Origin: Thermoanaerobacterium xylanolyticum LX-11
Lineage (GTDB): Bacteria > Bacillota > Thermoanaerobacteria > Thermoanaerobacterales > Thermoanaerobacteraceae
Direction of reading: 5' to 3'
Length of the DNA: 64,000 bases
Assembly (NCBI RefSeq): GCF_000189775.2
Contig: NC_015555.1
Location: 376,001-440,000, forward strand
Position 1 is the first letter of the stretch. Each line of letters starts with the position of its first letter. The translations under genes and the position numbers were made by a program. The notes beneath the pieces are model-generated. The model was not told the DNA's origin. It saw nothing but the letters and a program-made list of their open reading frames with translations, and made no database searches. This document shows positions 26,973 to 39,888 of this stretch, in pieces.

Positions 26973-28346
26973 TTATGCACACTTCGGAAGTCTTTCCTTA
27001 AGTTCTTTGGGAATCGCAGCCATAAAAGCATCAAGTAATTGGTCCAGCTGTTCTGAAGATAACGATAGTTTATCTGTTATTGTATCTATGAATACTTGCA
27101 TAAGTAGATGAAAAGCCTGAATCAGCGTAATATCGGACATTTCATCCTGTATGTAGTAAAATATCTCTCCCATTGTTCGTAAATCTGATGATCGACGGTT
27201 CTCTAGTGCAAGCATCATGTATCTGGTAAATACGATTGCTGTATGTGCTGTCATCGCATCGTAAGATAATGAATTGCATTCCTTGCTGAGCTTCAAGTAT
27301 GATTTACACACTTTGAAAAAGACTTCTATATCCCAGCGCTTCCCGTATATACGAATGATTTCGTCCTCGTTAAGGTTCATATCCGTGGTAATAAGTGCCA
27401 GATAGTCTTTTCGATTATTCCTGTTTCTGACAAATACAATTCGAGCAGGAATAGATTTTCCGTCTTTTTCAATGGAAACTTCCACGGATAACAGGTATCT
27501 AGACCTGCCTCTTCTTTTTCTGTTCTGCTTGTATATTTCTGTTAACGGCTGCATTATTCCATTATATAGGTAATGCATCTTTGATGTTTTCTTTGCCATT
27601 GCAATAACATCATAGCCTATTTCTTTAATAGCAATCAAAGAAGAGGGAGAACAGAACCAAGTGTCAAACAATACATAAGATGCTGGAATCATTGCTTTTT
27701 TAGCGGTCTTTATTAATTCCAGAGCTACGGCTGTTGCTTTAGTTTGGGATAGATTCCTTCTTAAATACCCGGCGGAACGCTTGTCCACAGGTATAGCTTC
27801 ATTGATACGATTCTTTTGATTCTCAGTAGATAAAAGACATCCATTGACTGGGATAAAAGTATTTCCATCTGACCATCCGAGTGTAAGTAGGCGAAAGCCA
27901 TATTTGTATGTTTTTTTAGCATGGTCATATACTTTTGCTAGTAGTTCTACTTTTTTAGAGCTAGAGCGTTCGAATAAAGAGTCATCAACAATAAGAACAT
28001 TTACGCGTTTGTCACTTGTTAACCCAGTAATTGTCTCATTTATAATCTGTGCACTAAGCCAAGTGGTAAACCGAATCCAATTAATATGAATAGAGTTTAA
28101 GAATCTGTAAACCGTGTCTTTCTTAAAACCAACCTGATTTGTACCCATTAGCATATTCATATACATAGATCTATTGGTAAAGATCATACAGAATAAGTAC
28201 TCGAAAATAGAAATAACGGGAATACCCTTGCTTTTGTAAGCATTCGATAACCTTAAAGCAGCCGAAATTCTATATTTTTTGAAGAAACTTTTAATCGAAG
28301 TAGAAACCTTATTATCAATTTGGTAATTTTGTGTTATACTATTCAT
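26973..28346 (-). CDS. IS4-family transposase
   Basis: A 457-aa DDE transposase. The IS4 signature Y-x2-R-x3-E-x6-K is present as YGKRWDIEVFFKVCK near residue 335. The first catalytic Asp is in VLIVDDSLFERSS near 115, and the second in VLFDTWFCSP near 228. ATG 28346 follows TTGGAGG with an 8-nt spacer. The ribosome-binding site can be buried in a hairpin formed with 28397-28414. The gene is intact and may be active. Confidence 0.9.
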   Translation of the reverse strand: MNSITQNYQIDNKVSTSIKSFFKKYRISAALRLSNAYKSKGIPVISIFEYLFCMIFTNRSMYMNMLMGTNQVGFKKDTVYRFLNSIHINWIRFTTWLSAQIINETITGLTSDKRVNVLIVDDSLFERSSSKKVELLAKVYDHAKKTYKYGFRLLTLGWSDGNTFIPVNGCLLSTENQKNRINEAIPVDKRSAGYLRRNLSQTKATAVALELIKTAKKAMIPASYVLFDTWFCSPSSLIAIKEIGYDVIAMAKKTSKMHYLYNGIMQPLTEIYKQNRKRRGRSRYLLSVEVSIEKDGKSIPARIVFVRNRNNRKDYLALITTDMNLNEDEIIRIYGKRWDIEVFFKVCKSYLKLSKECNSLSYDAMTAHTAIVFTRYMMLALENRRSSDLRTMGEIFYYIQDEMSDITLIQAFHLLMQVFIDTITDKLSLSSEQLDQLLDAFMAAIPKELKERLPKCA

Positions 28347-38623: not shown

Positions 38624-39019
38624 ATGATAACTTGGAAAGAAGATTTTAGGCTTGGCATTGACGAGATAGACAAGCAGCATAAGAGACTTTTTGATATTGC
38701 AAACGAAGCGTACGATTTATTGAAGAATGAATTTGCCATTGATAAATACGATCATATCGTAGAAATAATAAAAGAGTTGAAGGACTATACGATTTACCAT
38801 TTTGACTATGAAGAAGACTACATGAAAAGCATAGGCTTTAAAAAGTTGCTTTCACATAAAGTGCTGCACGATGACTTTAAAGAGAAGATTAACAACATAG
38901 ATTTAGATAAGATAGATCAAAATCAAGATGAATACATAAAAGACATTTTAAACTTTTTGGTGGATTGGATTGAGAAGCACATATTGAAAGACGATAGGTT
39001 ATATGCAGAAAAGCAATAA
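38624..39019 (+). CDS. bacteriohemerythrin
   Basis: A 131-aa hemerythrin with the di-iron ligands in order: IDKQHKRLFD near residue 15, YHFDYEEDYM near 60, HKVLHDDF near 78, and WIEKHILKDD near 116. It binds O2 reversibly and in anaerobes may scavenge or sense oxygen. ATG 38624 follows GGGGAGGAG. It converges on a second hemerythrin-type gene. Confidence 0.94.
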   Translation: MITWKEDFRLGIDEIDKQHKRLFDIANEAYDLLKNEFAIDKYDHIVEIIKELKDYTIYHFDYEEDYMKSIGFKKLLSHKVLHDDFKEKINNIDLDKIDQNQDEYIKDILNFLVDWIEKHILKDDRLYAEKQ

Positions 39020-39808: not shown

Positions 39809-39835
39809 GATATACATCCTCCTTTTTCTATTTCC

Positions 39836-39888
39836 AGTATACAAGAAACTACATCAAAATACTGTGATTTAAATCACAGTATTTTGAT
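39836..39888 (-). promoter_or_regulatory. CRP/FNR-type operator and -10 box upstream of the DUF438 gene
   Basis: A perfect 36-bp palindrome spans 39853-39888. Its core TGTGATTTAAATCACA (39863-39878) equals the CRP consensus TGTGA-N6-TCACA. On the minus strand TATACT at 39841-39836 is a good -10. If its first base is -12, transcription starts at 39829 and the palindrome is centred at -41.5, the class II activator position. There is no good -35, as expected for an activator-dependent promoter. The palindrome is also 82 bp upstream of the divergent DUF1294 gene. Confidence 0.75.

Follow-up and report, generated by a model that had tools for sequence, protein, structure and literature searches.

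Features of the locus

The window, that is, the whole stretch of 64,000 nucleotides analysed here (G000:C1:376001-440000, from a genome of 2,534,358 bp in a single contig), carries a perfect palindrome of 36 bp between two divergent genes (Table 1). Its arms, ATCAAAATACTGTGATTT and AAATCACAGTATTTTGAT, are 18 nt long, adjacent and 100% complementary with no loop between them, and both half-sites, TGTGA and TCACA, are exact, as given in the preliminary description. No perfect palindrome in the window is longer, and it has about twice the length of the next ones (half-arms of 9 and 8 nt); 40 sequences of 64 kb simulated with an order-1 Markov model of the same composition contained no half-arm above 11 nt. 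About 1e-4 perfect 36-mers of such symmetry are expected per 2.53 Mb genome. A pattern search of the genome, with up to 3 mismatches allowed, found no further copy. The palindrome is real, single in the genome and well past chance.

Table 1. Features at the palindrome locus, in window positions
Feature	Position	Strand	Basis
DUF438 and hemerythrin HHE protein, 250 aa	39056..39808	-	Pfam PF04282, PF01814; alignment
Ribosome-binding site AAGGAGG	39818..39824	-	sequence
Predicted -10 hexamer TATACT	39836..39841	-	sequence; conserved spacing
Perfect palindrome 18+18, no loop	39853..39888		complementarity, copy search, simulation
Predicted operator core TGTGATTTAAATCACA	39863..39878		identical in 8 Thermoanaerobacterium species; motif also at hcp, frdX, asr
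Divergent DUF1294 gene, 96 aa	39962..40252	+	PF06961; not supported as target

In the alignment of the DUF438-hemerythrin protein, the His and Glu residues typical of di-iron binding in hemerythrin are invariant. The protein is weakly related to the YtfE/RIC repair proteins, with scores far under the cut-offs for those families, and the corresponding proteins of the nearest named relatives, MAG Bu65 (Thermoanaerobacterium) and T. saccharolyticum NTOU1, are 95% identical to it. Positions 38624-39019 of the plus strand hold another hemerythrin gene, of a single domain (PF01814, 131 aa) and convergent with the DUF438-HHE gene, and no operator of the CRP/FNR type was found before it.

Eight Thermoanaerobacterium species, the present one included, have the DUF438-HHE gene, and the 16-bp core of the palindrome is identical in every one of them. 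The -10 hexamer begins exactly 29 nt from the operator centre, which gives a predicted transcript start at 39829 and places the centre at -41.5, the class II position. This geometry, originally deduced from TATACT, holds and is kept at five promoters of the genus and across Clostridium; every promoter site has its -10 at exactly 29 nt, the starts being predicted throughout. The core is therefore described here as a predicted and conserved operator of a CRP/FNR-family activator for the DUF438-hemerythrin gene.

Predicted regulon in the genome and in sister species

A genome-wide scan for the motif, as proposed along with the preliminary description, yielded five promoters. The exact sequence TGTGAN6TCACA occurs eight times, four times within genes and four times upstream of genes. 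All four intergenic sites have a good -10 hexamer (TATACT, TATAGT, TATAAT, TAAAAT) exactly 29 nt from the centre, and a good -10 at the expected place accompanies none of the four intragenic sites. The genes behind the exact sites are those for the DUF438-hemerythrin protein, a double-cluster ferredoxin of 121 aa that is FrdX-like by resemblance, hcp (hydroxylamine reductase family, E 1.2e-221; operator TGTGATATTTATCACA, -10 TATAAT at 29 nt) and the asr sulfite-reductase locus, whose AsrB model score of 4.9e-80 is slightly under the cut-off on an incomplete reading frame. Operator, 21 nt and TANNNT, searched genome-wide with zero mismatches, returned just these four promoters. Allowing one pyrimidine added a site with one weaker half-site (L213, G000:C1:71561-71603) and a -10 at class II spacing before a gene that is pyruvate formate-lyase-like (pflB) by resemblance. 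This site is present in all five searched sister species that have the wider regulon (G001, G002, G003, G004 and G006), and the gene is a probable fifth target.

At two mismatches the composite pattern was at background (39/47 vs 36/34), and the looser TKTGATN4ATCAMA with one mismatch gave 88 matches vs 28 in the control, most of those listed resembling background. Some of the TKTGATN4ATCAMA matches belong to a repeated element. The sequence TTTAATAGCAATCAAA, with about ten genomic occurrences including one near position 27624 of the window, is probably part of a repeated element.

The asr locus (L099, G000:C1 ~135000-136540) has its operator and -10 intact. Its asrA and asrB genes look truncated and fused in this genome and asrC is split across frames; the asrA reading frame is intact in G001 and G003. 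Because the asr genes are broken, the asr part of the regulon is not functional here. In most sister species, the core and the -10 at -41.5 are conserved at hcp, the FrdX-like ferredoxin gene, asrABC and pflB; G005 is missing the DUF438-HHE gene and the sole site that it keeps is that of hcp.

The outcome is a compact listed regulon for Thermoanaerobacterium, with five promoters and one regulator. It connects the DUF438-hemerythrin protein with Hcp, and hence probably with nitrosative stress or the protection of iron centres. The regulator is of an already known kind and probably switches on this small group of iron-protein and nitrogen-stress genes. In the literature searched, which took in few of the subscription journals and regulon databases, no earlier description of a Thermoanaerobacterium regulon or of the Clostridium operator was found.

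Regulator protein and comparison with known systems

The CRP/FNR-family regulator that had been postulated is present as exactly one gene, on which the sensor-domain model and the HTH model agree; four further matches in the HTH-model search were all under the cut-off. The gene (G000:C1:2508158-2508832, minus strand, 225 aa) adjoins dnaB, and its product scores 2e-25 with PF00027 and 1.6e-18 with PF13545, both beyond the cut-offs, which makes it a member of the CRP/FNR superfamily. There is no cysteine in the protein, which excludes a cluster of the FNR type with its four conserved cysteines. In E. coli CRP the sensor motif contains an Arg that contacts cAMP; the sensor domain here has AESLLFIGGKYPATAEA, without the Arg of the cAMP-contacting Arg-Ser, and so falls outside cAMP-CRP. 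The CRP-like recognition helix, GTSRENMTR (R-E-x-x-x-R), has R180, E181 and R185 by CRP numbering; these three residues are kept in nearly all aligned relatives, and residues 180 and 181 correlate with the TGTGA motif (PMC1274295). The regulator gene adjoins none of its predicted targets in this genome. In Thermoanaerobacter G011, G013 and G016 an ortholog lies directly upstream of hcp, and the orthologs in the hcp-linked Thermoanaerobacter cases are 62-67% identical to the regulator described here. In G009 a CRP homolog went undetected and the operator site is absent too.

The CRP-like operator before hcp, the FrdX-like ferredoxin among the predicted targets, and R180 with E181 in the helix are all features of an HcpR-like/Crp2 regulon. 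In T. tengcongensis a crp2-hcp arrangement with a CRP-like site before hcp and a Crp2-type regulator has been predicted (Rodionov et al. 2005, PMC1274295). The present system resembles it in the site before hcp and in the single Crp2-type regulator, and differs from it in that the regulator lies next to dnaB instead of hcp, the regulon is larger (DUF438-HHE, frdX, asr and pflB), and one operator is a 36-bp palindrome. With Desulfovibrio HcpR/HcpR1 (PMC1274295, PMC5701242) it shares the TGTGAN6TCACA motif, the R, E, R helix, and hcp and frdX as targets. These two genes are the HcpR core regulon (PMC1274295), so that their predicted co-regulation bears out the earlier suggestion of an HcpR-like sensor; hemerythrin-like genes, too, are often found in HcpR regulons (PMC1274295, PMC5701242). 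Desulfovibrio belongs to a different order; heme and a response to NO were shown there, and an NO/nitrite signal and a heme cofactor would apply here by analogy with studied HcpR proteins (PMC12750200, PMC5701242).

HcpR2 of Clostridium, Bacteroides and Thermotogales is likewise a cysteine-free CRP/FNR protein that regulates hcp, but it has the motif GTAACnnnnGTTAC and Pro181, whereas the operators here are TGTGAN6TCACA and residue 181 is Glu. The class II promoters of E. coli CRP/FNR are alike in the centre at -41.5, the dispensable -35 and the TGTGA half-site; unlike in E. coli, the regulator lacks both the cAMP-contacting Arg and the FNR cysteines, and its regulon consists of nitrosative/redox genes. 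By motif, helix, targets and the hcp linkage seen in Thermoanaerobacter, the putative regulator matches the predicted Crp2-hcp arrangement and the CRP-like motif of Desulfovibrio HcpR; by sequence it is not HcpR2, FNR or cAMP-CRP.

Proposed mechanism and alternative explanations

The operator, its spacing, the regulon, its conservation and the single regulator gene were established computationally. Our main reading, to which we give a probability of about 0.85, is that the core is the class II operator of the sole CRP/FNR regulator, which activates the DUF438-HHE, hcp, frdX-like, asr and pflB genes. A Crp2/HcpR-like dimer on the core, centred at -41.5, would substitute for the -35 contact and activate the sigma-70 promoter of the DUF438-hemerythrin gene, with transcription beginning at about 39829. 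Operators of identical geometry would let this regulator also activate hcp, pflB, the asr locus and the gene for the FrdX-like ferredoxin, in a small regulon that would counter nitrosative/redox stress and protect iron centres. As the make-up of the regulon and the HcpR proteins studied elsewhere suggest, the signal may be NO or nitrite, perhaps via heme, a route that is perhaps suggested because the regulator has neither a cysteine nor the cAMP-contacting Arg.

Whether the full 36 bp matters, with outer arms that add another binding site or extend the core to one of high affinity and thereby distinguish this promoter, was considered in view of the chance of about 1e-5, at local composition, of ten extra symmetric pairs and of the perfect 18-nt half-arm kept in three of eight Thermoanaerobacterium species (this one, G002 and NTOU1). 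The perfect half-arm is, however, 15 and 14 nt in two further species and 8 nt, the bare core, in G001, G006 and T. butyriciformans, all five retaining core and -10; other regulon operators pair at 5, 2 and 3 of the 10 outer positions, and the Clostridium sites are without these pairs. This explanation is therefore unlikely, and the tight control formerly read from the long half-site is not sustained. The outer 10-bp arms would be a lineage-specific extension and not what the regulator needs, and the unusual length looks like a local quirk instead of a requirement. The long symmetry may have arisen through template switching that corrected a quasi-palindrome. As a generally required operator, the full 36 bp was rejected, the arms decaying in sister species and missing at other regulon sites.

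Sites of the form T[TG]TGAN6TCA[CT]R followed by a gene were collected from the surroundings of the orthologous gene in Clostridium and related loci. The operator there is a related form at the same spacing, e.g. TTTGATTTAAATCACA, and the genes behind it, named by resemblance, encode DUF438-HHE, RIC-type iron-centre repair (CCGG motif), flavodiiron-type and other proteins. Of 51 unique Clostridium-type sites, 45 have a strict -10 at offset 29, and the second most frequent offset accounts for 5; because sister and Clostridium sites share ancestry, such counts do not represent independent events. The offset-29 spacing recurs before non-homologous genes. No -35 hexamer was present in 70 unique promoter sequences (best 3/6), as expected if an activator replaces that contact. 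It is rather improbable that the same regulator at the same site instead represses, blocking polymerase from -41.5 until stress frees the promoter: the operator overlies the -35 region, repression is within the repertoire of CRP/FNR proteins, and HcpR2 of Desulfovibrio desulfuricans has been modelled as an hcp repressor (PMC5701242), but the exact -41.5 at every target and the missing -35 hexamer fit activator-dependent promoters, and a repressor needs no fixed spacing. Fixed spacing and the lack of a -35 favour activation over repression, and we infer that the regulator binds the core and activates from it.

Control of the divergent DUF1294 gene as well, earlier offered as a 'perhaps', is about as improbable as repression. 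The site lies between both genes and TTTTAT (4/6) stands in this genome where a class II -10 for DUF1294 would be, but the hexamer is lost in G003, so that no -10 is conserved on that side, and the gene is absent beside the Clostridium operators. In the core-only species (here G001, G006 and G007), moreover, just DUF1294 codons 59-90 remain near the operator, the N-terminal half being gone, and yet the core and the hemerythrin-side -10 are intact. Because of this N-terminal loss, the unconserved TTTTAT and the intact core and -10, the operator most likely serves the hemerythrin gene.

That the palindrome is a terminator, a mobile-element remnant or a random repeat with no link to a regulator, as its length, its inverted symmetry and its AT-rich intergenic setting might suggest, is highly improbable, and for the core a terminator or mobile repeat was rejected, since the palindrome is single-copy and lies between divergent genes, where a terminator is unexpected, and the core is conserved at fixed spacing from the -10, also before orthologs in other orders.

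Possible sensor types at the operator

A CRP/FNR gene related to the regulator lies within a few kb of DUF438-HHE in 27 of 48 clostridial loci. These Clostridium neighbour regulators form a separate tree group (100/100), the placement of which is made less sure by long branches. Like FNR, they have C-x2-C-type cysteines at the N-terminus and one invariant cysteine in the central part. Operator and spacing would thus be common to two sensor types, one cysteine-free and one FNR-like. In Clostridium the FNR-type gene is encoded near DUF438-HHE, RIC, flavodiiron and hcp genes. We tentatively suggest, at somewhat short of even odds, that a TGTGATTTAAATCACA-like operator locked at -41.5 was kept across Clostridia and that the sensor was swapped, a cysteine-free Crp2 in Thermoanaerobacterales standing against a cysteine-bearing FNR-type protein in Clostridium. 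If so, similar regulons would answer different chemical signals via one operator design, and the Clostridium comparison makes such an exchange under a fixed operator testable.

In Clostridium relatives (L008-L056) class II operators are more numerous: they precede RIC, flavodiiron-type, DUF2249-like and DUF438-HHE genes, and an FNR-like gene is frequently close by. In Thermoanaerobacter G012 and G015 (L078/L085), a decayed operator, TGTGATATACGTTACA, lies before another DUF438-HHE gene, which is longer, 33% identical and, in G015, interrupted by an internal stop.
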